From Cymodocea nodosa (lineage: Eukaryota; Streptophyta; Magnoliopsida; Alismatales; Cymodoceaceae): a DNA stretch of 64,000 nt. The stretch lies in assembly GCA_036874045.1 (NCBI GenBank), contig CM072340.1, forward strand, positions 6,339,001 to 6,403,000, read 5' to 3'. Position numbers and translations under genes: made by a program. Positions within the stretch are counted from its first letter, which is position 1, and each line of letters begins with the position of its first letter. Below the pieces are notes generated by a model that worked only from the letters and a program-made list of their open reading frames with translations, did no database searches and was not told where the DNA came from. Of this stretch, positions 646 to 57,772 are shown piece by piece.

Positions 646-1580
646 ATGGATGAATTTAGTTTTGATTTGACACTTACATGTTCTAAATGCAAGTTGAATA
701 ATCATGTTGATGTTGATTGCCCATTTTATATGCTAAATAGCAATGTAGGTGCATGTTCCAGTTCTAATGTTAGCCTATCTATGCCAAATTTAAATTATAA
801 TGCTAATGTTTATGACACTAGTAGCTATAGTTGTGAAATTAAAATGGAAAAGCCTATAGGAAATGTTCCCTATGTTGAATTTGCAGTCAACTTAGCTAAG
901 GCAATTGCTAAACTTAACACCTCTATGGATTTATTAAACTTAGCAAAAGCCTCTAGTGCCCCCATTGACATAGATGGTTATGAAAACATAGATTTAAGAT
1001 CAACATCCTTGGTTGAGGATGAATCAATTGAAACTTATGTTGCTCTAAGGTCTGAGAGAGAGGTGAGCATTCCTGAAAAGGAAACTTCTTCTCTTGTACC
1101 GATGAGTGTTCCTATAGATGATTTAGGTTCATCCAATCAACTAAATAAAGAATCTGAAAATGAAATTTTATTAGGTGATAAAAAGGGTAAAGGTAAGTTA
1201 TCCAAGGTAAGTATCCCTTTAGAAAGTCAACCTGCCCCTTTTCCCCATAGATTAAGAACTCCACATAAGGATATTTATCAGAATATTAAGATGAGAGAAA
1301 TCTTTGAACAAGTTAGGATTAACATTCCATTACTAGATGTAATAGAGCAAATACCTGCCTATGCCAAATTTTTAAAGGAGTTGTGTACAAAGAAGCGAGC
1401 TAGGAAGACACCTACGAAAGTGTGCTTAGCTAAATCCGTTAGTACCTATTTCTGTCAAGACTTGCCTAAGAAGTTTAGTGATCTAGGTACTCCAACCATT
1501 TCTTGTACAATTGGAGATACCTATTTTGATAGAGCATTGATAGATTTGGGAGCAGGAGTAAATGTTATGTCATCTGGTGT
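646..1580 (+). pseudogene. Gypsy-A polyprotein, N-terminal part: CCHC zinc knuckle and start of protease
   Basis: Start taken at the ATG at 646 (MDEFSFDLTL), by analogy with MDDW in Gypsy-D; the reading frame is open further upstream but only from a non-ATG codon. About 10 residues in is a nucleocapsid-type knuckle, CSKCKLNNHVDVDC (CX2CX4HX4C). An acidic, low-complexity linker follows, then the Athila pre-protease region (REIFEQVRINIPLLDVI, AKFLKELCTKKRARK), then the retropepsin active-site strand with ALIDLGAGVNVM. No capsid domain precedes the protease. The frame is open but is cut by the LTR of Gypsy-B1 at 1581; the rest of the protease is at 19050. The knuckle probably binds RNA and the protease would process the polyprotein. 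Confidence 0.82.
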
Positions 1581-3910
1581 TGTTTGCGTTTTCCCAGCAC
1601 TACACCAGAAAAACTTGGATTTGTTACTTCTGTTTTTACTTAGTTAATTTATCTTTATGCCTATTTTTTTTTAGAAGTAAACAAACAACCTTTAATACAA
1701 TTTAGATATTAATTCCAATTTGTACTTTAACTACAAGTGCACAGTGTCTATTGTATCAGTGTGCAAGTACAGGTCGATCCCATAGGGAATTGCTGAAAAG
1801 TTTAGAACTGTCCATTTGTAAACAAACAAATTTATATATTCAATAAGCTCTCCGTTGAATTACAGTTAACTCAACGGATAAAGTTTGTTGAGTTATGGCT
1901 AACTCAACGAACTAACCTTGTGGACTTAAGTTAACTCCACGAGCTTGTCTTTTCTTTTTAATACTGCTATTTACAGAGGAATTTGGCCAACCATTGGGTG
2001 ATTCCACAGATTGTAAATAACATCAATTAAGCTCTTTAATGTTAGTAAACACTGGATTTATCATTAAGCAATACTAACATTCAGATAATTCAAACAGTAA
2101 CCATTAAAATCTTTAAGTCTTTTAAACGAACCAATTTCAGTAAACTGTAAAACTAAAACAAACATAAAACAATCACAACATTGACAAAGATAACATTAAT
2201 CACGATACAACACAAACAATACTACACTTAAATACAACATACAAACATAGATAAATTGTTTTTGGTATTTTTGTTTTAATATGAACATGGAAATGGGCGA
2301 AAGGTGAAATGTAAAGTAATCTCACTCGACAGTAAATACTTCCGACACTACTTTTAACGCGATTACACCACTTACAATTCTGTCTCCTCTCCCTATAGAA
2401 TCGCGAGTCCAGAATTGCAAGATAATCTTCTCTACAGCATACAGGCATCAACCCAAAGCCAAGGCTAAAAGCTTTACGATCTTCTGAGATATGAGTCGGT
2501 GCTTGGTGAAAATGGCTTCCCTTCCCGCGACGCGATCACTACTCACAGTGGTTGTCAAGCACTATGTTTGGCTTGGAATCAACCCAACATCAAGAAAGTA
2601 TTCTCACATACCTCCGATGGTTGGTGATTATGGTGGATATGGTGGTGGTAACAATGGTTGGTGTGATACTTCGGAGAATCGCCGATACTGTCTGCAGAAA
2701 GTTCAGTGCTCCTCCTCTGTATACATTGGTCATCCATCGATCACACCTACTTCTTTTTCTTCTTTTCTTTTATATTTCTTCAATAGTAACTACTTCTACT
2801 TGAATGATCGGTTGGATTTCCTTCATTCATATCAACGGCAATGATTTCTTCTCCCTGCGCAATACATGCAATCGTGGTTTTTCTTCCAATTGTCCTGTTT
2901 CTGCAACCGCTACAATGGCATATTAGAAAATAAATAATCCGTGGAGTTACAGGTAACTCAACGGACTTTCTTCGTTGATTTAACTATAAAACACGTGCAT
3001 TAAAGAAATAAGCCGCTAACATAACGCATTGCCTTAGTATGTATTCATGTAACTCAACGTGTACAGTTATGCTAACTTAACGAGTTAAACATGTGCATCT
3101 CACGTGATATACTAAAGCACTTAAATTCAACACGTGTATAAATTTAACTATTCGATGCTCAGGTGCATTTCAAATACTAATAAACTTAACTATCCGATGC
3201 TCAGATGCATTTCAGATAGTTATAAACTTAACTCACTGATACATAACTTAAGTAAATCTACCAGATCTCGACACGTGTCAGCAGTAGTTTAATAATAAAA
3301 TACCCATTTCAAAGAGTTACAGGTCTAAATATCTGATGCTCAGATGCATTTCGGATAGTTACAGCTAACTCACCGAAAATCCACTTAAATCACTTTACCA
3401 AAACATGACACGTGTCCATAGCTATTTTATAAATAAAAAGAGATTTCGGAAGGTTATACATATAACTATCCGATGCCCAGCTGCAATTTCTAATAGTTAG
3501 AGATAACTCACCGAAAGTTCACTTAAGTCATGCATTATGGTTTTGACATGTGTACTTCTGGAAATAATAAAATATTCTTTCAAAACATAACTGTTCGGCA
3601 ATATAAACATAACTATCCGACATATTCGGTCTGTTAAACATAACTGTCCGAAATATGTTTGGTATGTTAAACATAACTGTCCGAAATATCAGAAAATTTG
3701 GATACTTAAGAATTTCACAGCCTGCAACTTACCGACAGTTCAGAAATGTACTAAATTGGCATTAATTCCCCAAAATTAAACAGATTCTTCAATTAAAGCA
3801 TATAACAGTGCAATTATAACATAATGGCTTAATTTTCATATGATAAGCTAAATATTATGCAATTAACCATTATTTAACTGTTAATAATATGCACTTTTTG
3901 ATTCTAAACA
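1581..3910 (-). repeat. Gypsy-B1 3' LTR
   Basis: 2330 bp. It matches 16735-19046 throughout, and the start of the sense-strand copy matches 56196. In sense it begins TGTTTAGAAT and ends with a CAAACA-type terminus. A TATA-like box (CTTTTATA on the + strand, 2767-2774) lies in the middle. U3 holds several CACGTG G-boxes, pseudo-palindromic modules of the type CTATCCGATG...GCATTTCGGATAG, and inverted GTTGAGTTA/TAACTCAAC pairs. The U5 end has the plant Athila-type TCGACCTGTACTTGCAC segment. Differences from the other LTR are mostly C/T and G/A changes. Confidence 0.9.
2767..2774 (-). promoter_or_regulatory. TATA-like box of Gypsy-B1 3' LTR
   Basis: Reads TATAAAAG on the minus strand. The same motif is at the equivalent place in the other B1 LTR (17903-17910) and in the B3 LTR (56844-56852, + strand), so it is the best candidate for the family B promoter core. 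Confidence 0.55.
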
Positions 3911-3927
3911 CTTCCCCCATACCTAAG
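3911..3927 (-). promoter_or_regulatory. Polypurine tract of Gypsy-B1
   Basis: On the minus strand the sequence reads TAGGTATGGGGGAAG directly against the 3' LTR. It is preceded by a TTTGCTAAGGGCAAAACT context that also occurs before the Gypsy-A polypurine tract. It would prime plus-strand DNA synthesis. Confidence 0.8.
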
Positions 3928-5620
3928 TTTTGCCCTTAGCAAACTAAGATCTAATTAATTGATCTTTCAAAAAGTGCTAGAATTAATTCCTCTTCTTCTT
4001 TTTTTCTTCTGTTCAGCATAAAAATATATATTCTGTAAGTTTCAGTAATCAACCTGCAAATATACTTAGAATATATGTCAATTACATACAAAGTATATGA
4101 TCATCACATAGGTGTTAATTATATTATCGTTTGTTCTTCTTTTCATCATCTGCCATCCTGAATTTTCCAATAAGATTTCTAGAAGAAATTTCAACAACAT
4201 ACGAATCAAAGTACAATCCAATTCAATATGATTAAGACAAGTAGAATAAAGAATTGTATCTCCATTAAAACAACTTCAAAAGTCAATTCTAGATTCATAT
4301 TATAGCAATTCTAGAAAACAGAGAATATACTCGATTCATAAGATATCTGTATTTCACAAAACACTTGTATCTTTTCAGAATAGTATATATATATATTTTT
4401 TTTTCTTTTCTTCTCTCTTTTTTTTTTTTTTTACTTTAAAAGTTAATTTAACAAACTTAATCATACAGGAACTTTCTAATGTACCCATGTAACGAGCTTT
4501 CAGTCAACAATCCCAGATCTGATCTGGATCTTAGGTTGCCAGATTTCAAGAGTCATTTTCTAGGTCAACAATCCTTACATACCTATCTGCTCAAGTACAA
4601 AAGGCTCGTGATCAAACAAGTCAATAAACTCTCAATTTTTTTTCTTTTTTTTTTCAATCAAAATACACACAAAACAAAGCATTAATCACATACTGTATAT
4701 GTACATATTTCATTAATACAGATGAAGTAAAACACCAATCTCATATAGTCCTGTTTCTATCATTTACTGAAAATATGAATCCATAACAATAAGCTCATAC
4801 TTTTCTGTAGTCTAATAAGATCTACACATAAATCATTCTACAAGTTCAATCAGTCAAATTAAATGTATCTTTAATCATATGTGTTTCATTTAATTTAGAA
4901 TTCACATCTCAGCTCCTTCAGGACTTTAGATAATTTACTGATTTTTCATTAAGCATTCTGATTTCATTTTAAAATCGTGAAACTATTAAACTCATGAAAT
5001 TCAAAAAAATCATAAGATACTGTATCTAGATTTGCATAAATAATAAATTCTATAGCATCATATCTAGCCTTCTAAATATAGCATTCAAGTAGTTACAATT
5101 TATAAATTTTACAGTCTCAATTATCGGATAGTTATAGCAAATTCATAAAAATTTTCAATTTCCACAACTTTGCAGTACCATTTTAATTTTTTTAATTAAC
5201 AAACTTACATGGCTGTTACTTTAGTTACCTCCCCCCCATACCTACATTTTGCATTGTCCTCAATGTAAAAGATTTGATAATAAGTACAGTAATTGTAGCA
5301 GGCATGAATACAATTTTGTTTGATTTAAAATTTAAGGTAAGTAATTGGTTACATACCTTGTTCTGTTTGTATCTCGTTCTGCATATTCCGATTTTTGATT
5401 CTGAAAACTTTTCATTCACAGATAAAAGCAAAATATAAAACGAAATAACACTTAATAGATATTGATAATTCAGTGTCTTGTGTGGAACCTAGGCTCCTAT
5501 GCCTATGGTGGCTCACAAGCAAGCCAGTTGGTTTCCCAGAATAGATACCAACAAACTGGATTGATATTTCGTTTTTTTTTTATACCTAAACGTAGAATAC
5601 ATACAACATTAAACACACAA
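3928..5620 (-). other. Gypsy-B1 3' noncoding region, including block N shared with Copia-1
   Basis: No supportable gene. From about 4060 to about 4950 the minus strand aligns along its length, with gaps, to Copia-1 42640-43445. A 34-nt stretch at 4574-4607 is identical (reverse complement) to 42917-42950. Homopurine and T-rich runs lie at about 4390-4440 and 4635-4655. A second PPT-like motif lies at 5229-5245. Confidence 0.75.
5229..5245 (-). promoter_or_regulatory. Second polypurine-tract-like motif of Gypsy-B1
   Basis: Minus strand reads TGTAGGTATGGGGGGGAGG, preceded by CTTTTACATTGAGGACAATG. The same arrangement is found in Gypsy-A at about 24470-24510, so it is conserved between families. 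It could prime an internal plus strand; that role is inferred. Confidence 0.55.
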
Positions 5621-9231: not shown

Positions 9232-11430
9232 TTAATCTCTATTCCTAAGTTCATCTACTTCCTTTTGGAGTTTTTCTAATTGAAGTTCTAATTGATTAAT
9301 TCTTTCTACAACTCCTGTAATGCCTCGAAAAGGTACAGCTATCTCTGTAGCTACAAAATTTCTGTATTCTTTCACTGAAATGGTTCTTGATCTGATCCTT
9401 TTTGATGTCCATTTCGTGAAATCGATACAGTCCACCATCAATAGTGGAATCAAATCTCCATAAAATAATTTTTTCTTTACTGCTTTTAGCTTGGAGATAA
9501 AAACTACAGACTAATTTATTTGAATTCTATTTACAACTGCAAACGTGGCCTATTTGACAAATTGACTCAGTTCTATGTCATGGCCCTATCGTTGATAGAC
9601 ATTTTTAATCAGAATGTTAGCTATCATGTGTGCCTTACCACTTAAATGCTTCAATTTGTTTAATAAAGGTACACTAGGATTGATAGCTAAACAATTTTTG
9701 ATTTCCTGTTCGGTCCACTCAACAGTAGTTGTATCTTCAAAAATTTTCTGTCCTTCATTCTTTAATCTAAAAATGTTGTGGAGAAGCACTGGTGTTATCT
9801 ATACATCAGCTTCCTCCACGTTGGAAATTAATTTTCCTTCTTCCTCTCTCAAATTTGCATAAAAACAGGGCACTAAATTCTCATACACTACATGCCCTCT
9901 TTCTTGAGAAATAAACTGTAGTAGACCTTGGAATTCAAATAGATCTTTGATTTCTTGCTTTCCATCCCAATTTACTGGTCTATTGTAATTAATATTGTAA
10001 CCCCTTATTTCTTGATATTTGGTATAAACTTCCTGACTACAAAAATGTACATTCAAAATTGTTGTTTCAGTCGGGTTAGGAAGGTGACTTTGTTGTTCCA
10101 AAGGGGTTTGTACTTGCTCTTTCTCTAACATAGGCTGCATTTGAACATTTTCTACAGATTCCTGAATTTCTGTTTCTGTTTGTGGTGGTGAGCCGGCAGA
10201 ACTCTTCACTCTGTCTTGAATTCTTTCCATATATTGCTGAAGTGTTTCTTGCTCTTCAGTGGAATCTATGAAATTATTTTTGTCCAAATGGCTTCTTTCA
10301 TTCTCTTCACTTTCTACTCTTTCTTCTTCCTCCTGACTACCAATCTGTTCTGTTACTGTTCTTTCTAATTCTGTAACAGATTGGGATGGAGTCACGGGCA
10401 ATTCAGTTTCTGCCCTAGTTTCTGTTTCTTCTTGTAGAGGCTGCAGACTAATTTCAGCCTAATTTTCTTCTTTTCTTTGCTCCTGCTGCTGCAGCTCCTG
10501 CTCCCCCTCAGAATCGGATAGCAGGTTAATAAAAATTTGCTCCACAGGCCCTGTAAAAATTGGTATTTCAGATTTAATTTCCTCATTTTTAGGCACTTTT
10601 TCTTTTCCTTTATTTTTTCTGATTAGTTGTGCCTGTTCTTCCTCTTCATCTTTTGAGATTAAATCTACAAAAGTAGGCTCTGTAGGCCTTCGAGCCATAG
10701 GTACTAGCTCTTCCTATTTAACTTTTTCTATAATTACTGGTCTCGAAGGACCAACTTCATCTCTTTTTGTAGCAGGTTTGGCAGTAGCTTCTTGATGCTG
10801 TTCCATTTTGATTTTATATTGGGCTTTCAACTTTTTTGCAGCCCTCTTTCTCTTAATGGTATCATATATAATATGTGCCTTAGCCGTAGCTATTTCTTGA
10901 GTATCACCTTGGTCTCTTGCTGTTTTGACCAAGCTAGTAAATTCTTTCTCTTCTTCTTTAGTTCTCGGCCAAACAAATGCTAATCGTGGTAATGGTTTTG
11001 TTGGCTGAACTGGAGGTCTTGACTGCTGTTCCTCAGGAACAGGTCTTTCAGCAGTCGATTCTTCCTATTCTCTTGCTCGTTGCTGCTCCCATATTGCCCA
11101 GCTTCCTCGACCAGCAATGCGTTTCTTAAACCACAATCTGGCTATACGTTGAATTAGCTCTAGGGCCACTTCATTGTTTGGTTGGATTCTTCTTTCTTTA
11201 CTAACTGCAATTTCTATTGCTACTCTGATTCGTGTCTCCATTATCTGTGGTATTTGTATTTCTGACTCAACTAAAACTTTCCTCAAGTTAAAGAGCTCTG
11301 ATTCTACCTGTTGTAGCTCTTTCTCTCTTGTATTTTTGATCTTCTACCGCGTGTGTCATTCTTCAGATTCCTTCAGAAACTGTGTAGGGTCCACTGCATA
11401 TTCCTAGAATTCAGGCGTCATTTTCCTCAT
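9232..11430 (-). pseudogene. Gypsy-B1 ORF2, accessory ORF between integrase and capsid
   Basis: Starts at the ATG at 11430 (MRKMTPEF) and ends at 9232, about 730 codons with many in-frame stops. Three parts: an N-terminal helical region with IPQIMETRIRVAIEIAVSKE and LELIQ; a long acidic Gln/Glu-rich middle (MERIQDRVKSSAG and E/Q runs); and a C-terminal globular region with IRGYNINYNRPV, YANLREEEG, AHMIANILIKNVYQR, VVNRIQIN and KKKLFYGDLIPLLM, ending in a leucine coiled coil. The C-terminal part resembles the general pattern of plant transposon-associated proteins of Athila-type elements; I cannot assign a function. It is homologous to 44811-45260 in Copia-1. Most stops replace Gln or Trp of sister copies. 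Confidence 0.72.
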
Positions 11431-11899: not shown

Positions 11900-11937
<38 letters not shown>

Positions 11938-11981
11938 TGTGTTTTTTATATATATATATAAATATAAAAATTGATTTCTTA

Positions 11982-16727: not shown

Positions 16728-16734
16728 TAAAACT

Positions 16735-19046
16735 TGTTTGTGTTTTCCCAACACTACACTAGAAAAACTTGGATTTGTTACTTCTATTTTTACTTAGTTA
16801 ATTTATCTTTATGCCTATTCTTTTTTAGAAGTAAACAAACAACCTTTAATACAATTTAGATATTAATTCTAATTTGTACTTTAACTGCAAGTGCACAGTG
16901 TTTATTGTATCAGTGTGCAAGTACAGGTTGATTCCACAGGGAATTGCTGAAAAGTTTAGAATTGTCCATTTGTTAACAATCAAATTTATATATTCAATAA
17001 GCTCTTCGTTGAATTACAGTTAACTCAACAGACTAACCTCGTGGACTTAAGTTAACTCTACGAGCCTGTCTTTTCTTTTTAATACTGCTATTTACAAAGA
17101 AATTCGGCCAACCATTGGGCCATTCCAAAGATTGTAAATAACATCAATTAAGCTCTTTAATGTTAGTAAACACTGTATTTATCATTAAGCAATACTAACA
17201 TTCAGATAATTCAAACAGTAACCATTAAAATCTTTAAGTCTTTTAAACGAACCAATTTCAGTAAACTGTAAAACTAAAACAAACATAAAACAATCACAAC
17301 ATTGACAAAGATAACATTAATCACGATACAACACAAACAATACTACATTCAAATACAACATAAAAACATAGATAAATTATTTTTGGTATTTTTGTTTTAA
17401 TATGAACATGGAAATGGGCGAAAGGTGAAATGTAAAGTAATCTCACTTGACAGTAAATACTTCCGACACTACTTGCAACGCGATTACACCACTGAAAATT
17501 AAACCACTTACAATTCTGTCTCCTCTCCCTATAGAATCGTGAGTCCAGAATTGCAAGATAATCTTCTCTTCAGCATACAGGCATCAACTTGAAGCCAAGG
17601 CTAAAAGCTTTATGATCTCCTGAGATATGAGTCAGCGCTTGGTGAAAATGACTTCCCTTCCTGCGACGCGATCACTCCTCACAGTGGTTGTCAGGCACTG
17701 TGTTTGGCTCGGAATCGACCCGACATCAAGAAAGTATTCTCACAGACCTCCGATGGTTGGTGATTATGGTGGATATGGTAGTGGTAACGATGGTTGGTGT
17801 GATACTTCGGAGAATCGCTGATACTGTCTGCAGAAAGCTCGGTGCTCCTCCTCTATATACACTAGCCGTCCATCGATCACACCCACTTCTTTTTCTTCTT
17901 TTCTTTTATATTTCTTCAGTAATAACTACTTCTGCTTGAATGATCGGTTGGATTTCCTTCATTCATATCAACGGTGATGATTTCTTCTCCCTGCGCAATA
18001 CATGCAATCGTGGTTTTTCTTCCAAGTGTCTTGTTTCTACAATCGCTACAATGGCATATTAGAAAATAAATAGTCTGTGGAGTTATAGTTAACTCAACGG
18101 ACTTTCTTCATTGATTTAACTATAAAACACATGCATTAAAGAAATAAGCCGCTAACATAACGCGTTACCTTAGTGTGTATTCATGTAACTCAACGCGTAC
18201 AGTTATGCTAACTTAACGAGTTAAACATGTGCATCTCACGTGATATACTAAAGCACTTAAATTCAACACGTGCATAAATTTAACTATCCGATGCTCAGGT
18301 GCATTTCAGATACTAATAAACTTAACTATCCGATGCTCAGATGCATTTTGGATAGTTATAAACTTAACTCACCAATATATAACTTAAGTAAATCTACTAG
18401 ATCTCGACACGTGTCAACAGCAGTTTAATTATAAAATACCCATTTTGGAGAGTTACAGGTCTAACTATCCGATGCTCAGATGCATTTCAGATAGTTACAG
18501 CTAACTCATCGAAAATCCACTTAAGTCACTTTACCAGAACATGACACGTGTCCATAGCTATTTTCTAAATAAAAAGAGATTTCAGAGGATTACACATATA
18601 ACTATCCGATGCCCAGCTGCAATTTCAGATAGTTAGAGATAACTCACCAAAAGTTCACTTAAGTCATGCATTATGGTTTTGACACGTGTACTTCTGGAAA
18701 TAATAAAATATTCTTTCGAAACATAATTGTTCGGCAATATAAACATAACTATCCGACATATTCGATCTGTTAAACATAACTGTCTGAAATATGTTCTGTA
18801 TGTTAAACATAACTGTCCAAAATATCAGAAAATTCGGATACTTAAGAATTTCACATCCTGTAGCTTACTAATAGTTCAAAAATGTACTAAATTGACATTA
18901 ATTCCCCAAAATTAAACAGATTCTTCAATTAAAGCATATAATAGTGCAATTATAACATAATGGCTTAATTTTCATTTGATAAGATAAATATTATGCAATT
19001 AACCATCATTTAACCGTTAATAATATGTACTTTTTCATTCTAAACA
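16735..19046 (-). repeat. Gypsy-B1 5' LTR
   Basis: 2312 bp, partner of 1581-3910 with the same architecture: U3 with G-boxes and CTATCCGATG...CGGATAG modules (18283-18835), TATA-like box at 17903-17910, U5 with TCGA/TACTTGCAC segment. It carries small indels relative to the other LTR, including a 14-16 nt difference near 17495-17510. Confidence 0.9.
17903..17910 (-). promoter_or_regulatory. TATA-like box of Gypsy-B1 5' LTR
   Basis: CTTTTATA on the + strand, TATAAAAG in sense. It is the promoter candidate for the B1 genomic transcript, 1.3 kb upstream of the PBS. Confidence 0.55.
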
Positions 19047-19721
19047 CGTTTCTGTGAACCTTGGACTTAATGGTATTCAACCCACTAAGGTTCTCATTCA
19101 ATTAGTTGACCATTCTTTTAGAACTCCCTTTGGAGTTGTTGAGAATATATTGATTAAAATTAAAGATTTTGTCTATCCCGTAGATTTTATTATTTTAGAA
19201 AATCAACCTTCACTTGGTAGAAAGCAAAATGTGCCTCTTATTTTAGGAAAACCCTTTCTAGCCACAACAGATGCATATATAGGATGTAGAGATGGGTTTA
19301 TGCAAATAACATATGGTGATGCTAAGGTTGATTTAAATATTTTTAAATCTCACCCTGAAGTTAAAATTTTAGATAATGAAAATTTTAATGTGAGCTTAGT
19401 AAACATTATGGATGAAGGTGAGGGGGTAGAAAATTATAATTTATCTAAAGATGAAGATTATCCACCTATAGAATATGAGGTTGATCTAGCACATATCTAT
19501 GACTTAGATGATGACATTGGTGAGAGTGATAGTATTTTTGAATTAAATTATATAGAGCCTTAGAAAGAGATTTAGGAGAGATTAAGAAACCATCTATTGT
19601 TGAACCACATTCTCTTGAATTAAAACCCTTGCCTCAAGACCTTAAGTATGCCTATTTGGGAAAAGAGAACACCTTGCCAGTTATTTTGTCTTCCCATCTT
19701 CCTAGAGAGTAAGAAGAGAAG
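19047..19721 (+). pseudogene. Gypsy-A protease, C-terminal part after the B1 insertion
   Basis: Continues the protease interrupted at 1580: NLGLNGIQPTKVLIQLVDHS, RTPFGVVENILIKIKDFVYP and LILGKPFLATTDAYIG are the flap and C-terminal strands of an Athila retropepsin. An acidic linker follows. A TAG at 19561 and a frame change break the link to RT; a further TAA lies at about 19710. Confidence 0.85.
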
Positions 19722-32351: not shown

Positions 32352-34560
32352 ATGACGCTAGAGTTCTAGGAGGAAATAGATACCATGAGATTTCTCAGAG
32401 AATCAGAAGAATGGCACACGAGACAAAAGATCAGGAACACGACAAGGCAAAAAGAACTCCAAAAGGTAGAATCTGACATTTTCTACTAGAGGAAAGTTTT
32501 AGTAGATTTAAATATTAAGATACCTTAGATTGTGGAGACGAGGATTAAAGTAGTAACGGAAGTTGCAGTAAATAGAGAAAGAAAAATCAGGCTAGGTAAT
32601 GAAGTTGCCCTAGAACTGATTCGACGTAAGTCCAAATTATGGTTTGTACGACATATTGGTGGGCATGCTTGGTGGGCAATCTAGAAGCAACAGAGGAAAG
32701 TAGTTGAAGAACCTACAACTACAGAGCTGGCTGCTGAAAGACCAATTCCTAAGGAATAGCAGCTAGGACCATCCATTCCACCACTTAGGCTGGTAGAAAA
32801 AGTTGCATTTTTGGGGCCATCAACACTAGAGGAATGGAGAGAGTTTGCAAAGCTTGTCAAAGTTGCCAAGAGCCAAGAAAATTCTAAGGATATGGTTGTG
32901 GCAAAAGCACATATATTGTATGATGCACTCTATAAGAAAAGGGTCACAGATAGGTTGAAGGCCTAGTATACAATTAAAGTAGAGTAGCATTAGGAAGCAA
33001 CTCAATCAAGGGTTGCTAGAGAAGCTGAAGTTGGTTCTTCGAGACTAGTAATTATAAAAAATGTAAAACAGGAAGAGCCAGTACTTGTGGCTCGAGGGCC
33101 TCAAGAGCCCATTGTTGTAGATTTAATCTTAGAGGAGGAAGAGGAAGACTAGGCACAGCTAATGAGAAGAAGGAAATGAAAAGAGATAGTGCTTGAAGCT
33201 CCTATAGAGATTAAACATGAGCTGAAAATTTTAGAAGGGCCTTTAGAGCCTATTTTTGTAGACCTGCTATCTGAAGCTAAGGATGAGCAGGAGCAACAGC
33301 AGCAAGAGCAAAGAGAAGAAAAAAAATAGGTTGAAATGAGTCTGCAGCTTGTACCAACAGAAGAAACTGAAATTAGGGTAGAAGCTGAAATGCCCGTGAC
33401 TCCATCCCAATCTACCACAAAATTAAAAAGAATAGTGACAATGCAGATTGGTAGTTAGGAGGAAGAAGATAGCAGAAACTAAACAAGTACCTATTGAACA
33501 AGGAAGAAATGACTCGATAGATTCCACGAAAGAGAGAAACTCTTCAACAATTAATTGAAAGAATTCAAGATAGAGTGGAGAGTTCTATCGGCTCTCCACC
33601 ACAGATAGAAGCAGAAGCAAAAATGTAGGAATCTCTGGATCATTTCTAGTAAATTCAAGTTCATCATATGGAAGAACTTCAAGAACAAACCCCTCTAGAT
33701 CAACAAATTCAAATTCCTGACTTGGCTGAAGCTACCTTTCTAAATGAAGTACACTTTTAGAGTCAGGAAGCTTATAATAAATATCAAGAGATAAAGAGGT
33801 ATGATATTATATACAGCAGACCAGTAAACTAGGACGGTATGCAAGAAATTAAGGTCTTATTTGGGTTCCAAGGTCTACTGCAATTTTTTTTCAATAGAGA
33901 GGGTATGCAATATATGAAAATCTAGTGCCCTGCTTTTATGCTAATTTGAGAGAAGAAGAAAGTGGATTAATTTCCAACGTGGAGCAAGCTGATGTAGAGA
34001 TAACACTAGAGCTTCTCCACCATATTTTTGGATTGAAAAATGAAGGAATTGAAATTCTGGAAGAAACAACTGTAGTGGAATGGGTTGAACAGGAAATTAA
34101 ATAGTGCATAGCCATCGACCCTAGTGTGCCATTACTGAATAGATTGAAGTACTTAAATAGAAAGGCACACATGGTTGCAACCATACTAGTAAAAACTTTT
34201 TATCAAAGACAAGGCCACGACATTGAACTTAGTCAAATTGTCAAGTGGGCCACATATGCAATTGTGAACAGAATTCAAGTTATTTTATGGTACAAACTAT
34301 TTATCTCCAAACTGAGAGTAGTAAAGAAGAAATTATTTTATAGAGATCTGATTCCACTATTAATGGTGGATAATATTGACTTCACCAAAAGGATAAGATT
34401 AAGAACCATTTCAATGAAGGAATGCAGGAATTATGTTGTAGCTGCTGAGATTGGTGGATCTTCTGGAGTAATTACAAGGGTTGTTGAGTGGATAAATCAA
34501 TTAGAATAATAATTAGAAAAGCTCTAGAAGGAAGTAGATGAACTTAGGAAAAATGACTAA
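32352..34560 (+). pseudogene. Gypsy-B2 ORF2, accessory ORF downstream of integrase
   Basis: ATG at 32352 (MTLEF) to TAA at 34558-34560. Same three-part plan as B1: helical N-terminus, acidic E/Q-rich middle with Gln repeats, C-terminal region with YANLREEE, AHMVATILVKTFYQRQGHD, AIVNRIQVILW and KKKLFYRDLIPLLMVD. The C-terminal part is better preserved than in B1. In a 30-nt stretch near 32966-32996 three stops stand where B1 has Gln codons, a clear C-to-T decay pattern. Confidence 0.75.
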
Positions 34561-35315: not shown

Positions 35316-36847
35316 TATTGAGTATTTTGTTTTGCTTGTGAAAGGAAATTAAGAACATCAATTAATATAGAAAAAGTTTACTAATATAAATACTTGTTTG
35401 TAATGGATCTGAAATTATACTAAGTTAAATAACTAGTCATTTCATTGCATTAATTTCTCATTTAACTAAATGTTAAGTTAACGTGTGTTTTTATTGAAAA
35501 GCATGATATGTTTTAAAGTTATATTTTTTGTATCATGAACAATGCACGTTTAGACAACTCATTGAGTTAGAGTGTTATTTGTACAGAGGTCACGTGAGAA
35601 CTCGTTAAGTTAGAGGCTTAAAGGTTAAAATAGGTCACGTGAAAACTCGTTAAGTTAGTGAGTAAAAGAAGAGACGAACTCGTTAAGTTAGTGTTGTACA
35701 CGTGGTGAAATTAAAGGTTACGAATGTTATATTTATCACGTTAGGTGCACATGTTTAACTCGTTAAGTTAACATAACCAAACGCATTGAGTTGCTATATT
35801 GAACACTAAGGCAACGCGTTAGGTTAGCGTTATAAAACTTAAGTTGTTATTATTGCACATGGTAAAATTCTTATTATAAAAATATTTGTTTATCATTGGT
35901 TCGTTGAGTTATCTGTAACACAACGGAGTTGGTTCATTGAGTTATCGTAACACCACGAAGTTGGTTCGTTGAGTTAGCATAACACCATGGACTTAGTTTG
36001 TTGAGTTAGCTACAGTACTTGTCACATGAGTTGGCACATGAGGAACTCATTAGGTTAAAAATGTTAAGTTATATATCTACTTGTTTTACTCGTTTAGTTG
36101 ACATTAAAGTAACAACTTATTATTACACTTGATGAAAAATTTTGGATGAGAAAGTTTATTTTGCAGGAAATTTTTCAGAGATCCAGGATTGATGATTAAA
36201 GAAAATTCGAAATGTAAACGTACGTTAGAACATGTGTATTTTGATGAAGGAAAAAGAAAAGACATGAAGAAGTGGAAAACTGGTAGTGATTAAACGTGGA
36301 GGATATGCATGAAATGAAGATACAATATAAAAGGCATAGAATTCTCGTTGATCAAGTTATCCCTACACACCAAACAAAATATCTTTTTAGTGATCAAAAA
36401 CATCTTTCAAGGAAAAGCTCTTAGATGGAAGAAAATTCAGTGAAGCAGAAAAGGTCAGATTTATGTCACTAAAGATCTGAAGTATTAGAAGAAAGCAAAT
36501 TCGGTTAAGTAGAGAAAGACAAGATATTCGTCACTAAAGAAGTGCTAAGAAGAAGAAAAAGAAGAAGAAGAAGAAAGATCTTAAAAAGGGAGAAATGTTT
36601 TAAATTCCGCACATTAGTTTTCTCTATTTGTAGTTATGAAATTGTATAGATGAAACATGGTATCGATATATAATTGCATCTACAATTTCTGAGGAGAATT
36701 GAATTGTATTTTGTAATTGAAACCTTGAATGAAAATGATTTTATGAAAATAGTGTCTTGACTTGTTTTTAATTTTGAAGTTTCAATTATAATCGAAAATG
36801 TTGAAAAACACAATTCACCCCCTCTTGTGTAGCCATACGATCCTACA
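35316..36847 (+). repeat. Copia-1 5' LTR
   Basis: About 1532 bp. Starts TATTGAGTATTTTG, where the other copies have TGTTGAGTATTTTG, and lacks a short piece after that. It ends CCATACGATCCTACA. G-boxes (CACGTG) near 35588, 35637 and 35699, plus GTTGAGTTA modules at 35896-36015. TATA box at 36326-36334. Left flank CGTTC is the last sequence of Gypsy-B2. Confidence 0.87.
36326..36334 (+). promoter_or_regulatory. TATA box of Copia-1 5' LTR
   Basis: TATAAAAGG in the context GAAGATACAATATAAAAGGC, conserved in the Copia-2 LTR (47636-47644) and the antisense LTR. Confidence 0.65.
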
Positions 36848-36849
36848 AG

Positions 36850-36861
36850 TGGTATTAGAGC
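36850..36861 (+). promoter_or_regulatory. Primer binding site of Copia-1 (tRNA-iMet type)
   Basis: TGGTATTAGAGC, two bases after the LTR; Copia-2 has the perfect TGGTATCAGAGC. The C-to-T change would weaken tRNA pairing. Confidence 0.88.
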
Positions 36862-37047
36862 TTCGTTAATAATCTTTGATATAAAATTGATACTAACTTA
36901 TTTAATATCATTACTTATTATGCCTTCATTGTTTTTAAACAGAAATTAATATTTGACCATACGTTTAACCTTCTTGATTTAAGGCTCAAGTTGTTTTAAA
37001 GTTTTTAAACTAATTAAAATCAAATAGGTTGAAAAATCTAAGGTAAA

Positions 37048-37992: not shown

Positions 37993-38004
37993 AAGAAAAA
38001 TGCT

Positions 38005-39285: not shown

Positions 39286-40848
39286 TTTGTTTTACAAGAG
39301 GAAACAACATCAAAATGGATCTTGGATAGTGGAGCATCAAGTCACATGACCAAACAGAAAAGTTTACTGAAAAATTTTACAAATACCAAGAAAGGAAATG
39401 TTACATTTGGAAACAAAAGCAAGGATGAAATCATAGGTATGTGCAATGTTCAAATAACTCCTACTTGTGTTATTTTGAATGTACTATATGTAGAAAACCT
39501 AGGGTTTAATTTGCTAAGTATTATAAAACTAACTGATAATGGATATTATGTGTTATTTGAAGATGATGTATGCAAAATTATTGATAAAAGTACAGATGAA
39601 CTTAAGTTTATTGCTAAAAGAAAAGGTTTTGTATGTATTTTATCTTTACCTTCTAGTGTAGTTGATTTAAATTCATGTTTGCTAGCTGAAACTAGTGATG
39701 CATATCTATGGCATAGAAGGATCGGGCATATAAATATGAAATTATTGCATAAATTATCTAGAAAATATTTAGTGAGAGGTTTACCAAAGATTAAACACTC
39801 AAAGGACTTTATGTGTGATGCATGTGAGTTAGGTAAACTTCACAAAAACTCTTTTAAATCCAAAACTGATATTTCAAGCAAGAGAGTCTTAGAACTTACA
39901 CATATGGATCTATTTGGACCAACAAGAATCATGAGTCTTGGTGGTAAATGGTATGTATTTGTTTTAGTAGATGACTTCTCTAGATATACTTGGGTATATT
40001 TTCTAGCATCTAAGACAGAAGTTTTTGAAAAGTTTAAAATGTTTTGCAATCTTGTTCAAAATGAACAAAGTGTCTCTATTCAAAAACTTAGGAGTGATCA
40101 TGGTACTAAATTTGATAATGATCAAATGGATAATTATTGTAAAGATCATGGCATTGATTATAGATTTTCTTTTCCAAGAGCACCGTCTCAAAATGGTATT
40201 GTTGAGAGAAAGAATCGATCACTTCAGGAAATAGTTAGAACTATGTTAAATGAACATAATTTACCTCAAAATCTTTGGGTTGAAGTAGTTTGTTATATTA
40301 TTAACAAAAGTCACCTAAGACCTCTTGTTAATAAAACTTCTTTTGAAATTATGTTTGATAGGGTTCCAAAAATTTCCTATATGAAACCATTTGGCTACAA
40401 GTGTTTTATCCTTAACACTAAGGATAAAAGGGATAAATTTCAAGCCAAAGCGAATGAAGGAATTTTTGTAGGTTACTCTACTAGAAGTAAAGCCTATAGA
40501 GTATATAACAAGACTTCTAAAACTATTGAAGAAACCCTCCATGTAAGCTTCAATGAAAATTCTTTTAGAGAATCTCAATCTAAAGCTGATAATGATGATA
40601 TGATCAATTTTTCAAAAGAATTAAAGATCAATAGAGAGATTGAAGATTTATTTGAGAAAATCAAAAATATGAACTTAAATGATCAAACTAATGATGAAAG
40701 TGATGTACCTCCCGATGTTAATGAGAATATTGAAGAAAATCATAGAAATTGGCATTATTCTTCATCACATCCCATCACTCAAGTCATTGGTAATATTAAT
40801 GAGGGAGTTAAAACTAGAGTTTTAGTAAATATAAATAGTATGTGTATG
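39286..40848 (+). pseudogene. Copia-1 protease and integrase
   Basis: Protease active site WILDSGASSHMT at 39316-39351. Then the pre-integrase zinc region LWHRRIGHINMKLLHKL and CDACELGKLHKNSF, and the integrase core LTHMDLFGPTRIMSLGGKWY, LRSDHGTKFDND, NGIVERKNRSLQE carrying D, D and E. A C-terminal part includes KPFGYKCFILNTKDKRDKF and GIFVGYSTRSKAYRVYN. The frame is open over 550 codons to 40983; it is the longest intact frame in the window. Confidence 0.9.
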
Positions 40849-42388
40849 TTTGTTTCTATGGTGGAACCAAAGAATATAGGAGAGGCTTTATCTGATGAAA
40901 AATTGGATAGTGCAATGCAAGAAGAACTAAATCAATTCATCAGGAATGATGTTTGGGAATTAGTTTCTCCACCCAAAAATTAGTCCATAATAGGTACAAA
41001 GTGATCTTTAGAAACAAAACTAATGAGACTAGTCAAGTTATAAGAAACAAAGCTAGATTAGTTGCACAAGGGTATATACAGGAAGGACTAGATTATGATG
41101 AAACATTTACTCTTGTGGCTAGGTTATAAAGTGTTAGAATATTATTGGCCTATGCTTGTTATATGGATTTTAAACTATATCAAATGAATGTCAAGAGTGC
41201 ATTTCTAAATAGTTTAATTAATGAAGAAGTTTGTGTAAAACAACCACCTGGATTTGAAGATATTAAAAATCCTGAGTTTTGTATAAATTAAAGAAAGCCT
41301 TGTATGGTTTGAAGCAAGCACCTAGATTGTGGTATGAAAGGTTATCTACTTTTCTAATAGAACAAGGATATATCATGGGAAAAGTAGACCATACTCTATT
41401 TATCAAGAGAGATGATAAAGATCAGATTGTTGTTCAAATATACGTGGATGATATAATCTTTGGAGTAACTTCTGATAAACTAATAAAAATATTTTTTGAA
41501 GAGATGACTAATCAGTTTGAAATGACTATGATAGGAGAACTTTCATATTTTCTAGGACTTCAAATTAAGCAAATGGATAAAGGTATATTTTTAAATCAAG
41601 AAAAATATGCAGATGAAATGCTTAAGAAATTTAACTTTAGTGATACAAGGATTCAATGAACTCCTATGAGTACTTTAAAGTTAGATATTGATGACATAGG
41701 AAAATCAATAGATCAAAGAAAATACAAAAGTATGACTAGTTCTTTACTTTATTTGACAGCTACTAGACTTGATATTATGTTCACTGTGTGTGTTTATGCT
41801 AGATTTCAATCTAATCCTAAAGAATCACACTCAATTGCTGTTAAAAGAATATTTAGATATATATAAGGAACTAAAAACTTTGGTTTGTATTATTCTAAGG
41901 ATAATTCAATAGATCTTATAGGATATACTGATGCTGATTACATAGGATCTAAATCTGATAGAAAAAGTACTAGTGGCACATGTCAATTATTGAGAAATAA
42001 CTTGGTGTCATGGTTTAGTAAAAAGCAAAACTGTGTAGCACTTTCAACTACATAAGTTGAATATGTTGCTGCTACACTATGTTGTACTCAGATTCTGTGG
42101 ATAAGGCAAACTTTAGAAGATTTTGGATTATCTTATGATATAACTAAGATTTATTGTGATAGTAGTTCTGCAATAAATCTTTCCAAAAATCCTATATTAC
42201 ATTCTAAAGCAAAACATATAGAGGTTAGACATCATTTTCTAAGAGATAATGTAATTAAAGGAAAAATTAAATTAGGATTTGTGTCTAGTAAAAATCAATT
42301 AGCTGATATATTTAAAAACCCTCTAGATGAAAATACATTCTGCAACATAAGATTAAATTTAGGCATTTGTAGGCTATGTGATGTGTAA
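40849..42388 (+). pseudogene. Copia-1 reverse transcriptase and RNase H
   Basis: Begins with VEPKNIGEAL and LISP-type finger motifs, TAG at 40981 and a lost stretch after it. Then LKKALYGLKQAPRLWYERL, VVQIYVDDIIFGVTSD (catalytic YVDD), YFLGLQIKQMDKGIFLNQEK, and RNase H with YTDADYIGSKSDRKSTSGTC, STTxVEYVAAT, IYCDSSSAINLSKNP and KHIEVRHHFLRD. Ends with LGICRLCDV at 42386-42388. Five or more stops and frameshifts. Confidence 0.87.
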
Positions 42389-43980
42389 AATGCTTAGACT
42401 CCACAAAAGATAAATTTTGTTGATGATGTTGTTTACCTCATAGATATTATATATTTATCATAAATATCTAAGTAATATCTAAACTGCTACATAAAATACT
42501 ATATATTTATTGTAATATTATAGTAGTATCTTATTGATTTTAAGTATTTTGTCAAGTTTAATGATTTTCAAAAATTTTAAGTGGAAGTGTAAATGAAAAA
42601 CATTAAATACCTTTGAAATCCTGAAATTTTGGTTAAATGTTTCTTTGGATCAATGAAAGTACATATGATCATGCATGAATTTGACTTAATTGATTAAACT
42701 TGTAGAATTATTTATATGTAAATCATCTTAAACTATTAATCAAAAGTATGAGCTTATTGACAGTGATTCATATTTTTAGTAAAATCATAGACGTAAAAAT
42801 TGTATGAGATTTATGTTTATTGCATTTGTATTAATGGAATACATATATACTGTGCTTAAAATGAAAAGTGCTTACAAAGTGAAAATCTTTAAGAGTTTAT
42901 TGATTAGTTTGATCATGAGCCTTTTGTACTTGAGCAGATAGGTATGTAAGAATTGTTGTCTTGAAAAAAGATTCTTTAAATTTAGCAACCTAAGGTCCTG
43001 ATTAGACCTGGGATTGTTGATTGAAAGCTCATTACACGAGTACATTAGAAAGCTCTTGTATGATTAAGCTTTTCAAACTAACTTTTAAAGAAAATTATCA
43101 ATATTTACTATTTTGAAATGATAAAAGTTGTTTCATTAATTATAGAGATCTTTGAATCAAATATGGTTTCTACCAATATGACTACTGATCTGTTGAATCA
43201 AAATTAGTACTTTTGAAAATGTTTATTGAGATACATTCCTTTATTCTTCTTGTGTTAATCTTATTAAGTTTAAAGTTATGTTTTGATTCATATACAGTTG
43301 GAATTGATTCTTGAAATCATTTTTGATGAATTCAAGATGACAGAAATCATCTAAAAAGAAAATTTACAGTGTAGCTATAATTAATATCTATTTTATACAA
43401 ATATATTTTGTATGTAATTGAATATATTTGAAGTATATTTGTAGGGGGAGGAATAAAATGTCCAAAATAGATTAATATAATTTAGAATATAAATCTTGGT
43501 TAATCTGATTTTAGTCCTCTTAAGATCTTGATGAAACAATTTAAAAGACAAACAAACTATTTTAGATTCATAAAAAGAGAATATTAGAATAGTTTACAAT
43601 GTTCTAAAGATGATGTTATATATGTTAAGTTTTAGCTTGTGTGTTGTCTTCGGAAGGTTTCAATTGAAATCATCCGAAACTTGTTTTTGGTAAAGTATAC
43701 TAACTAAACGTTATGTTATATAAGGTAACATGTAAAACTACCTCTAGACAACGTTTTACTTGTTAGGTTAGTTAACTCAATGAGTTATGCTTAAATATTT
43801 TGAGTACCTTGATTGAATAAACTGTATTCAATATTCATTTAAAATCCAAACCTGACTATCATACTAATTGAGTTAGTCACCTAAAACCCTATTTAAACAC
43901 TTATTTCACGGGCACTTAGGTTATTCGTAAACTTTGTGTCTGAAAATCTTTCCCACTTGTTCATGTTACAACTTGTGACG
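42389..43980 (+). other. Copia-1 noncoding region after pol, containing block N shared with Gypsy-B1
   Basis: No gene. From about 42640 to 43445 it aligns to the minus strand of Gypsy-B1 (about 4060-4950). Landmarks include 42917-42950 (34 nt identical) and a TTTGTATGTAATTGA followed by TATATTTG(C/T)AGG end. A PPT-like AGGGGGAGG lies at about 43442-43450. Confidence 0.75.
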
Positions 43981-45476
43981 ATGGTCTCCAAGTTCTACAA
44001 AGGTCGTGGTAGAGGAAAAGGAAAAGGTAGAGGAAATAGAAAAGGAAAAGAAATAAACAATCATGAAGTTCCATGAGCTTGGTTTAAGAAAATACTTCAA
44101 GTTGACAAAATGTTAGCAAAAATATATAGTGAATATTTCTTTCCTGAAGGAATACTAAATGAAGTTAGACTAGAACTTCATAATACTGATGCAAGTATAA
44201 AATACATGGGTATAAGAAGTAAATTTGACAAAGAATATAGAATAAAGTGTGCCGAAATTGCATTTTTGGAACAGTATGCACAATATCTGAAAAAAGGTAT
44301 AGGTTCATCAACTAGAATTCCTCAAACACCTATAAATGGTATAAGATTACATGCATTTGAGGAAGAACATGAATCTACTATTCCTACTCCTTTGTATTCA
44401 AAAGAAAAACAAACAAATATTGTTGTGGATAAAAGAAAAGTTGAAGGACTTCGAAAGGTAGTAGCAATAGAAAGTGCCTTAAAAGAATTAAACCAAAATA
44501 CTTTTATAGAACAAATTCAGAAGAAAATAGCAATACTTGAAGAAGAGAAACTGACTTGTTATAGAAGACGAAAAATCAGGAAAATTATGTCTAAAGAAAC
44601 AAAGTCTGCTGGAAAAGAAAAATCAGATGAGCATTTATTTCCAAAGGACAATGTATGTCTAGACATTGTTTCTTTTAGTGCATCTAAAAAACTCATCAGT
44701 TCCAAGCATACTAAAATTGATGAAGATAATGAGACATTGTAGCCTTTTATAGTAATCTAGTCAAGAATGACAATATACTAACAACTCAAATACATCAATA
44801 GGAGTTCATTTTGTCTCCTAAATTAATTTTTGAAGTGTTGGGATTAAAGAATGAATGTGTTATTGTTACAAATAGATTTGACATGGTTAGACAGCTGGAA
44901 TGGGACATTCACTCGCTATCAACGATTCCAGATGTATATAGTGAAATGAGGTTAATGGAAAATCTGAATGCAGAGGCAAGGTTTATTGCAAATATCTTGC
45001 ATGCCAATTTATTTTAGAGAGTCGGACACAATATGGAAGTCAGCAGAAGTTGTTTATATGCAACTTATGGTTTGCTGAATAGAATTCAAATCAATTGGTT
45101 TGATGTTTTCATTTCTCAACTATAGCATATAAGTTCAAAGTTATTTTTTGGTGATGCTGTATGTAGACTTCTTGTAAACCAATTCAATTTATCTGACTGG
45201 TCCTCTAAAACTAAAGGCATGAGAGCTTCTAGTGTAAAAGATTTGCAAAGATTCCAAGCCATGCATCAACCTCAACCTCATCAACAACAACAACAAATAG
45301 AATATACAGAACAGATACAATCACTTATACAACCAAGTCATTCAGTTCGAGCAGAACAGCAACCCCAACTACCTCCTTCCCTAGATGATGTACTTAACGA
45401 AATCAGAAATGATATTAGGCATCTAGGAGATAAAATATGTAATGCTATTAGTGATATCCTTAGGAGGAATAGATAA
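43981..45476 (+). pseudogene. Copia-1 ORF3, accessory ORF downstream of pol, related to gypsy-B ORF2
   Basis: ATG at 43981. A strongly basic start, GRGRGKGKGRGNRKGK, is followed by a TGA at about 44074, then a helical part (KCAEIAFLEQYAQYLKKG) and a charged coiled coil (IEQIQKKIAILEEEKL). After TAG 44740 and a frame change, the C-terminal part (44811 on) has ARFIANILHANLF, YATYGLLNRIQINWFDVFIS, KLFFGDAVCRLLV and a Gln/Pro-rich tail ending in a coiled coil at 45476. NRIQINW, VFIS, KLF-GD and W-SK line up in order with ORF2 of Gypsy-B1 and B2. Its position matches the env-like ORF of some Sireviruses; no signal peptide or convincing membrane span is visible, so I do not call it envelope. Confidence 0.72.
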
Positions 45477-46009
45477 ATGTCAAGTCATTTGTCTATTTGC
45501 TTGTATCTGAATACATATTGTAATGTTTGTATTTATTGTTTGATTATTTGCACAATACATTTTTTCTGTAAATGGTTCAATTCTTATTTATGTTTACAGA
45601 AAGTTGAGCTATATATACTTATCTCTCGATTTATATATTGAGTAATCATCTTTTTGATTAATGACAAAAAGGTGGAGATGATTATAAATTCAAAAGAAGA
45701 AGATGATTATGATTTTAATTGCATATATTATAAAGGGAGATGATATTTAAGTGGTTATTGTAATCTGCTAGATGATAACGTAATCTGAAAGATAATTATA
45801 TGGTTATTAAAATTTGAAAGATACTTATATAATTATTGACATCTAAAAGCTTTATTTCTGAGAGGTGAATTTTACACAAATAATAGAAATAAGCTTAAGT
45901 GAACTTAAGTCAACAAACTTGTTTATTGAATTAAAAATTTAACTCAACGAAAGAGCTTTGTTGAGTTACATATATTTCATAATTGATTTAATATGATTTT
46001 GTCGTCATC
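45477..46009 (+). other. Copia-1 3' untranslated region with an upstream polypurine-like motif
   Basis: No gene. ACAAAAAGGTGGAGAT at 45664-45679 imitates the true tract at 46010-46023. A GTTGAGTTA-type module lies at about 45935-45975. Confidence 0.6.
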
Positions 46010-46023
46010 AAAAAGGGGGAGAT
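46010..46023 (+). promoter_or_regulatory. Polypurine tract of Copia-1
   Basis: AAAAAGGGGGAGAT directly before the 3' LTR start TGTTGAGTATTTTG. Confidence 0.85.
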
Positions 46024-46453
46024 TGTTGAGTATTTTGTTTTGATGATGTATGTTAAATGAAAGTAATCATATTTGCTCAATTACTATTGCTTGTGAAAGG
46101 AAATTAAGAACATCAATTAATACATAAAAGGTTTATTGATATAAATAATTGTTTGTAATAGATCTGAAATTATAGTAAGTTAAATAACTAGTCATTTCAT
46201 TGCATTAATTTCTCATTTAACTAAATGTTAAGTTAACGTGTGTTTTTATTGAAAAGCATGATATGTTTTAAAGTTATATTTTCTGTATCATGAACAGTGC
46301 ACGTTTAGACAACTCATTGAGTTAGAGTGTTATTTGTATAGAGGTCACGTGAGAACTCGTGTGTTTTTATTAAAGGTTACGAATGTTATATTGTATCACG
46401 TGAGGTGCACATGTTTAACTCGTTAAGTTAACATAACTAAATGCATTGAGTTA
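46024..46453 (+). repeat. Copia-1 3' LTR, 5' part only
   Basis: 430 bp that follow the 5' LTR from its start, up to CATTGAGTTA, where a gypsy-B LTR begins. A stretch present in the 5' LTR is missing near 46360. The remaining 3' LTR should lie to the right of the nested insertions, outside the window. Confidence 0.82.
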
Positions 46454-46715
46454 TGTTTAGAATGAAAAAATGTACAATATTAAGGGTTAAATGTTAGTTA
46501 ATTGCATAATATTTAGCTTATCATATAAGAATTAAGTCATTATGTTATAATTGCACTGTTATATGTGTTAATGAAAGAATCTACATAATTTCGAAGAATT
46601 AATGTTAATTAAGTACATTTCTGAACTGTTGGTGAATTGCAGGCTATGAAATTCTTAAGTATCTGAATTTTCTGTTGTTTTAGAGAGTTATGTTTAATGT
46701 ACTGGACAGTTATGT
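46454..46715 (+). mobile_element. Gypsy-B4, first 262 bp of a family B LTR
   Basis: Starts TGTTTAGAATG and follows the sense strand of the family B LTR up to GGACAGTTATG, where Copia-2 inserted. It shows that a fourth family B copy entered the Copia-1 LTR before Copia-2 arrived. Confidence 0.83.
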
Positions 46716-57663: not shown

Positions 57664-57772
57664 AAGAGACAGGCTCGTGGAGTTAACTTAAGTCCACGAG
57701 GATAGTCCATTGAGTTATCAATAACTCAACGAACTTAGTCCGTTGAGTTAACTGTAATTCAACGGAGTGCTT
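57664..57772. repeat. GTTGAGTTA/TAACTCAAC hairpin modules in the Gypsy-B3 LTR
   Basis: Three adjacent inverted repeats, the last with 12-base arms TCCGTTGAGTTA / TAATTCAACGGA around a 4-base loop (one arm mismatch). Equivalent of 1851-1947 in B1. Confidence 0.75.

Follow-up and report, generated by a model that had tools for sequence, protein, structure and literature searches.

The 64-kb stretch of Cymodocea nodosa DNA analysed here (hereafter the window; G000:C12:6339001-6403000) consists largely of nested retrotransposons and belongs to a genome of 375 Mb. One of these elements, copia-1, carries downstream of pol an open reading frame (ORF3) for which the initial annotation proposed homology to ORF2 of gypsy elements in the same window, resulting either from exchange between the two superfamilies or from parallel capture of one gene. 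We wondered if this kinship is real, how old it is and which of these routes could account for it.

Copia and gypsy elements of the window

Copia-1 spans approximately 35316-46453 on the plus strand. According to Pfam, its integrase precedes the RVT_2 reverse transcriptase, which is the Ty1/copia order; 42056-42388 is called RNase H by position alone, as it gives no meaningful Pfam match. The gag of this element is decayed, and a simple pattern search detected no CCHC knuckles in it, of which Sireviruses have several. Copia-1 comprises the following features:

35316..36849, plus strand: 5' LTR, ends approximate, with C-rich stretch close to its end
36850, plus strand: PBS-like TGGTATTAGAGC directly after the 5' LTR, presumably of Met type
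39286..42388, plus strand: pol, broken (Pfam: gag-pre-integrase, integrase core, RVT_2)
43443..43450, plus strand: internal polypurine tract (PPT) octamer AGGGGGAG, close to the downstream end of the module described below
44077..44742, plus strand: charged N-terminal piece of ORF3, open for 221 aa, in a different frame from 44736-45260
44736..45260, plus strand: PF20167-like stretch of ORF3, homologous to gypsy-B ORF2
45261..45476, plus strand: Q-rich and charged tail of ORF3, outside the alignment with gypsy-B
46014..46021, plus strand: terminal PPT octamer AGGGGGAG, followed by AT/TG (to 46025) and the 3' LTR
46024..46453, plus strand: 3' LTR, shortened by a gypsy-B LTR start (46454-46708)

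The region 46454-46714 is a nest, in which the gypsy-B LTR start interrupts the copia-1 3' LTR and copia-2 starts within that gypsy LTR.

Gypsy-B pol has reverse transcriptase/RNase H ahead of integrase, which is the Ty3/gypsy order. Pfam identifies gypsy-type RNase H, protease and integrase zinc-binding domains in copy 1 and the integrase core in copy 3. The PBS TGGCGCCGTTGCC, found at 16715 (minus) and 58046 (plus), is taken by us to be of tRNA-Asp type, an Athila trait. We label gypsy-B Athila-like from pol order and PBS rather than from a reverse transcriptase tree. LTRs of copy 1 (1580-19047, minus) are 5.8% apart. Inspection of its flanks by eye revealed no matching target-site duplication at the ends, so this copy may be recombinant. 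Its features, together with the relevant part of copy 2, are:

16734..19047, minus strand: copy 1 5' LTR
16715, minus strand: PBS-like TGGCGCCGTTGCC, following the 5' LTR
9235..11343, minus strand: copy 1 ORF2, post-pol, in pieces
9349..9873, minus strand: stretch of copy 1 ORF2 homologous to copia ORF3
1580..3911, minus strand: copy 1 3' LTR, whose subpart 3190-3014 is common with the copia LTR
33925..34434, plus strand: stretch of copy 2 ORF2 homologous to copia ORF3

Copy 1 further contains, in the interval from ORF2 to the 3' LTR (8498-5300, minus), a second gag-like piece (PF03732, 7877-7515) and an F-box gene (PF00646, 6797-6192). Of eleven gypsy-B loci in the genome, nine have some of this block and six at least a portion of the F-box stretch, so that the block looks like a family trait.

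Kinship of the two post-pol genes

Copia 44736-45260 aligns with gypsy-B ORF2 (9873-9349, minus) over 175 gapless columns, and 57 of 168 comparable residues are identical (34%). Smith-Waterman scores of copia against the two gypsy copies reach 255 and 220; the best of 2000 shuffles scored 55 and 64, respectively. In a six-frame scan with 247-residue windows, the copia stretch was the only clear match beyond gypsy-B ORF2 itself (255; next unrelated 67). Second codon positions of copia and gypsy-B copy 1 are 62% identical and third positions 36%, an excess that argues for kinship at the protein level.

Individual pieces of the genes are also recognizable. Copia 45126-45473 matches gypsy 9235-9510 (minus) with E 1e-9, two other copia/gypsy pairs being without a BLASTP match, and gypsy 34105-34506 retrieves copia 44955-45254 by tblastn (8e-14). 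The single homologue found in the protein database is P0001, 115 aa from a 745-base record without context, perhaps from the same plant; it is 88% identical to the copia copy over 97 residues and has by itself no Pfam match. Shared ancestry of the two post-pol genes, as originally proposed, is well supported, the profile-profile comparison being significant: hhalign of copia (P0001 and the window piece) against the gypsy pieces gave 97.0% and E 8.2e-11 over 97 columns.

Both genes match PF20167 (Transposase_32, a putative plant transposon protein). They cover this 177-column profile in register (copia 23-147, gypsy 15-167 and 15-136). Scores are 15.8 bits for copia (E 0.014) and 22.4 and 15.8 bits for gypsy (E 1.2e-4 and 0.014), all under the curated cut-off of 45. 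Other Pfam matches, namely PRO8NT (obtained from the copia stretch together with its Q-rich tail), ArlX and RDV-p3, were taken as compositional and rejected. No relative was found among solved structures. A pattern fitted 7 stretches of viral and 35 of prokaryote contigs, none of which was confirmed as a relative.

The motifs that had drawn attention to the two genes (ANIL, GH.xE.S, NRIQIN, VFIS, KLF.GD, W.SK and SVK) do occur in this order in copia and in gypsy-B copy 1, where a stop replaces W after NRIQIN. Copy 2 displays the variants ATIL, NRIQV, LFIS, KLFYRD and SMK and has lost W.SK. The limits of the homology required revision. The copia domain had been placed at 44811-45476; the shared stretch is there, yet it starts 25 codons earlier, at 44736, and 45261-45476 is not shared. 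Likewise, gypsy counterparts reported at 9232-9800 and 33960-34460 exist, with limits amended to 9873-9349 (minus) and 33925-34434 (plus). For the N-terminal piece of copia ORF3 (44077..44742), tblastn detected no gypsy-B counterpart in the window. ORF3 of copia-1 is broken by in-frame stops at 44799, 45015 and 45123.

No membrane-spanning segment was detected in the scan, which covered 14 pieces of the window copies; the highest 19-residue mean hydropathy was 1.22. Since the tested pieces contain no such segment, we regard the post-pol protein as an internal accessory of the particle more probably than as an envelope. Fold prediction for gypsy piece 34105-34506 yielded a poor, mostly helical model (mean pLDDT 51.6).

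Copies of the gene in the genome

A search with PF20167 retrieved at least 14 places in this genome, repeat counts from genome searches being lower bounds, and none in 14 control genomes. Typing by tblastn assigned eleven of them to gypsy-B, two (L011, L013) to copia and one (L001) to neither. Only L001 passes the profile cut-off; copia copies L011 and L013 match profile positions 16-148 and 16-150 with E < 1e-3. Stretches fetched around 13 of the 14 places (all except L001) contained four further copia-type copies, L018, L020 (partial), L024 and L027. Each of the six copia-type copies outside the window precedes a copia LTR, and ORF2 is followed by gypsy post-ORF2 DNA in 11/11 gypsy loci. Similarity to gypsy ORF2 starts further upstream in several of these copia-type copies: 36 residues earlier in L011, about 68 earlier in both L013 and L018, and about 130 earlier in L027.

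Two copies are peculiar. The domain copy at L027:7836-8505 shows 59% likeness to copia P0001 over 51 columns and 40% to gypsy over 88 columns, and might represent a third lineage. L001 is strongly diverged from both groups and adjoins weak RT/RNase H similarity.

One locus was considered as a copia element with the domain and without the module. This candidate (L016) was rejected, since it reads as an env-less Sirevirus-like element, with octamer and ATTG soon after pol, beside a domain fragment. The env-less element (L016:1946) has several PPT-like runs after pol, including two AGGGGGAG ahead of the terminal one.

Age of the gene and selection

To estimate the relationship between the copies, a phylogenetic tree of the domain was constructed from 17 rows: three copia (L011, L013 and the window), 13 gypsy and L001. 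The tree comprises neither the four later-found copia copies nor an outgroup from other plants, and in the L011 row the second half is out of frame. Support is 100/100 for a group of the three copia rows, which a stem of 2.38 changes per column separates from the 13 gypsy rows. The branch of L001 is very long and its placing unsure, and 11 of 14 inner branches are open. Copia and gypsy copies thus do not branch together, the pattern which the initial annotation had named as support for exchange. Synonymous sites between copia and gypsy are saturated in 13 of 14 pairs and reach 2.54 in the remaining one, with dN of 0.67-0.86; for 21 pairs within gypsy, dS is 0.20-1.27 and dN 0.07-0.21. Given the separate copia group and the saturation at synonymous sites, a recent swap of the gene is not supported. 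Of the exchange originally suggested, it is an old transfer that remains plausible, and any transfer of the gene would have to be old. The kinship of copia ORF3 and gypsy-B ORF2 is both real and old.

Between two gypsy-B copies dN/dS is 0.19 (bootstrap 0.12-0.30), compared with 0.64 and 1.44 in the wrong frames, which indicates that the protein is maintained by selection.

A non-coding module and an LTR segment common to both families

Copia-1 and gypsy-B also have non-coding DNA in common, to which the initial annotation did not refer and in which the evidence for exchange chiefly lies. A module of about 1 kb follows pol in copia and precedes the 3' LTR in gypsy-B; the match between the families has E 2e-138 and identity of 71% in its core part. 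Upstream the homology tails off, and its end lies close to the internal octamer at 43443. Further, a segment of about 180 bp is common to the copia LTR and three gypsy-B LTRs of the window; the overlapping copia stretch 35756-35927 is 70% identical to 56505-56663. Similar LTR matches occur in L019, L020, L021 and L022 (filtered list) and in L017. The respective features are:

42475..43472, plus strand: module between copia-1 pol and ORF3, 69% identical to gypsy-B 5079-4026 (minus)
42886..43094, plus strand: module core, predicted long hairpin, 84% identical to gypsy-B 4638-4432 (minus)
4026..5079, minus strand: module of gypsy-B copy 1, just ahead of terminal PPT (G-run at 3918) and 3' LTR
35649..35829, plus strand: copia LTR segment common with gypsy-B LTRs, 71-72% identical to 3190-3014 and 18326-18150
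35902-36012, 35080-35192, 8625-8804, 1850-1946 and 57672-57768: arrays of GTTGAGTTA/TAACTCAAC-like palindromes

The palindrome arrays are found in copia and gypsy-B LTRs as well as in gypsy 3' DNA.

When the genome was searched with the copia module, 6087 first-look candidates were returned, the best 40 of which were scored (89-100%). Thirty of the best-scored loci were fetched, about 4 kb each and including the window's own (L028); having been chosen by likeness to the copia copy, they are uninformative on gypsy numbers. Copia RNase H is present in 29 of them and ORF3N in 25, with the order RNase H-module-ORF3N in 24; gypsy-LTR-like matches occur in eight and copia-LTR-like ones in five. As to gypsy-B, six of the eleven loci (L017, split; L019, L020, L022, L023, L026) have the module between the F-box remnant and the gypsy LTR. 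In the approximately 10 kb fetched for each of the other five, no module was detected as a gypsy-B part, and gypsy-B is interrupted or rearranged there. Rfam returned three sub-threshold matches to the module and nothing more, and the module was not found in phage records.

A tree of ten modules splits three copia from seven gypsy copies (100/100). K2P distances lie at 0.28-0.37 between families, at 0.04-0.13 among copia copies and at 0.07-0.24 among gypsy copies. In the gypsy copies, divergence of the module is about that of amino-acid sites and far below that of synonymous sites, which suggests constraint. Measured against the protein, module divergence is lower between the families than among gypsy copies. 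This favours a module shared later than the gene, although constraint or faster protein change could mimic such a pattern; since low copia-gypsy divergence of the module may reflect constraint rather than youth, it is uncertain which of the two events came first. Recurrent at a fixed place in each family, slow to change and provided with a hairpin-forming core, the module is better evidence of exchange than the gene itself.

A predicted hairpin in the module core

The module core is predicted to fold into a long hairpin, with folding z of -5.2 in copia-1 and -0.8 in gypsy-B copy 1 alone. The consensus fold of ten copies reaches -40.5, compared with -23.2 (sd 3.6) for shuffled columns. In this ten-copy hairpin, pairing holds in 608 of 627 cells, and changes on both sides occur in four of 63 pairs. 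When 3' letters were dealt at random, 8 of 1000 trials reached 608 paired cells, a test inflated by relatedness of the copies; when partners were slid, pairing fell to 150-288 cells. Pair counts from two sequences did not beat their controls (142 of 500 shuffles as high). Taken together, the fold predictions give moderate support to a conserved hairpin in the module core.

Relation to known elements

Copia-1 fits a Sirevirus-like Ty1/copia element with a post-pol "env-like" gene, a placement by features and not by a reverse transcriptase tree. In the excerpts available of two Sirevirus reports, the env-like gene of SIRE/Maximus elements is also situated between pol and 3' LTR, and a PPT octamer followed by AT/TG, a C-rich LTR end and a long linker are likewise described (PMC2829016, PMC3414828). 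Agreement of the octamer depends on letters inferred from that partial description. The copia-1 linker holds two PPT octamers (43443 and 46014), in comparison with about four on average in Sireviruses. The same excerpts term the env-like gene sequence highly variable (PMC2829016, PMC3414828), its origin, in Sireviruses as in some gypsy elements, being unknown as of 2012 (PMC3414828). What differs here from these accounts, to the extent of the excerpts, is that the C-terminal part of the copia-1 gene is tied to a gypsy post-pol gene. Moreover, mean identity of Sirevirus linkers is given as 4.8% (PMC2829016), whereas the copia-1 and gypsy linkers are 69% identical.

Gypsy-B ORF2 resembles the post-pol, sense ORF with Transposase_32 (PF20167) of sunflower Athila 14 (PMC11728184). 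Unlike the Athila 14 element in the available part of that account, gypsy-B has the F-box block and the shared module; a link to copia is absent there (PMC11728184). Among env-like proteins little similarity was noted overall, and Calypso and Cyclops-2 alone appeared homologous, in the portion of text at hand (PMC1142308). A partly available study of common bean describes copia env-like proteins that are mutually alike and a gypsy antisense ORF2 without similarity to them (PMC4093653). A likeness to our case is provided by bdelloid rotifers, whose unrelated retroelements have ORF3 types in common; there, other proteins and hosts are concerned, and the accessible text does not mention a shared non-coding module (PMC5408684).

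In the literature covered, which mostly excludes subscription papers, the copia env-like gene has not been tied to PF20167 and a shared linker is not reported. That copia and gypsy env-like genes have a common origin seems to have been proposed before: Du et al. 2010 reportedly argued for a single ancient origin of these envelope-like genes in flowering plants, with the copia gene derived from a gypsy lineage. The non-coding module is not known to be part of that proposal. An available excerpt credits Du et al. 2010 with "recently formed hypotheses" on the origin of the env-like gene (PMC3414828). Within the literature as covered, new here are the shared non-coding module and LTR piece, the more surprising part.

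Origin of the shared segments

Homology of the genes, their fixed place in both families, long separation of the lineages and purifying selection in gypsy-B are established by the above comparisons. We consider it probable (about 0.62) that they reflect one ancestral post-pol gene, an old transfer between the superfamilies, and sharing of the module and LTR piece through template switching. The C-terminal part of copia ORF3 and gypsy-B ORF2 would descend from one ancestral PF20167-like gene, which would have passed between superfamilies long ago. Separately, and perhaps later, the 1-kb linker module with its hairpin-forming core and the LTR piece would have become common to both; a single block transfer cannot explain both gene and module, since these stand in opposite order in copia and gypsy-B. 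As the likeliest route we infer that reverse transcriptase switched templates between two RNAs co-packaged in one particle; in both families, polypurine tracts close to the module may have favoured break points. The sequences compared indicate neither direction nor date of either transfer, and capture of a host gene is a less probable rival. A more elaborate picture is conceivable and rather doubtful: Sirevirus-like copia and Athila-like gypsy elements of C. nodosa may have traded components on more than one occasion, namely the post-pol gene, the module and the LTR segment. The module would then be a functional RNA element with a conserved hairpin, serving both superfamilies in a common step, for example export, packaging or plus-strand priming beside internal polypurine tracts.

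Chance or low complexity is refuted as the source of the similarity: AT-rich DNA and the spurious-looking PRO8NT match of the copia stretch with its Q-rich tail invite that suspicion, yet the score far exceeds the shuffle maximum (255 as against 55) and the tail lies outside the aligned part. Refuted, too, is the reading that insertion of a gypsy fragment into this single element gave rise to the copia copy. Although insertions are nested throughout the window, 34% identity and saturated synonymous sites speak against such an event, as do P0001 (88% identical) and six other copia-type copies, each followed by a copia LTR; the copy is a family trait and not a one-off. Independent capture, by which copia and gypsy-B would each have taken the same gene from the plant or from a third element, is unlikely rather than implausible. 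The distance between the copia and gypsy groups (stem 2.38) agrees with it, and the third group L001 and the L027 copy (7836-8505), intermediate between copia and gypsy, suggest more than two lineages of the domain. On the other side stands the same post-pol place and sense of the gene, in elements which have non-coding DNA in common as well; that no host gene was seen carries little weight, as no plant proteome was searched.

To a similar degree we doubt that the module is a third, independent repeat, inserted once in each family and then copied along. The 6087 first-look candidates would suit such a repeat, as would a core that is palindromic like some small transposons and flanked by 5-base repeats at the hairpin ends. 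End repeats were found in the gypsy module too, listed without a chance control. Those of the copia module, inverted or direct, are no more than in shuffled flanks, for which reason the module was rejected as a small transposon. Its place is moreover fixed in both families, 29 of the 30 fetched loci (best-scored, the window's included) have copia RNase H, homology fades gradually upstream, and the LTR piece is common too.

The sequence link between the genes and, in particular, the non-coding module found at a fixed place in families of both superfamilies make exchange between superfamilies testable. The shared module points to a cis-acting RNA element that both families may need.
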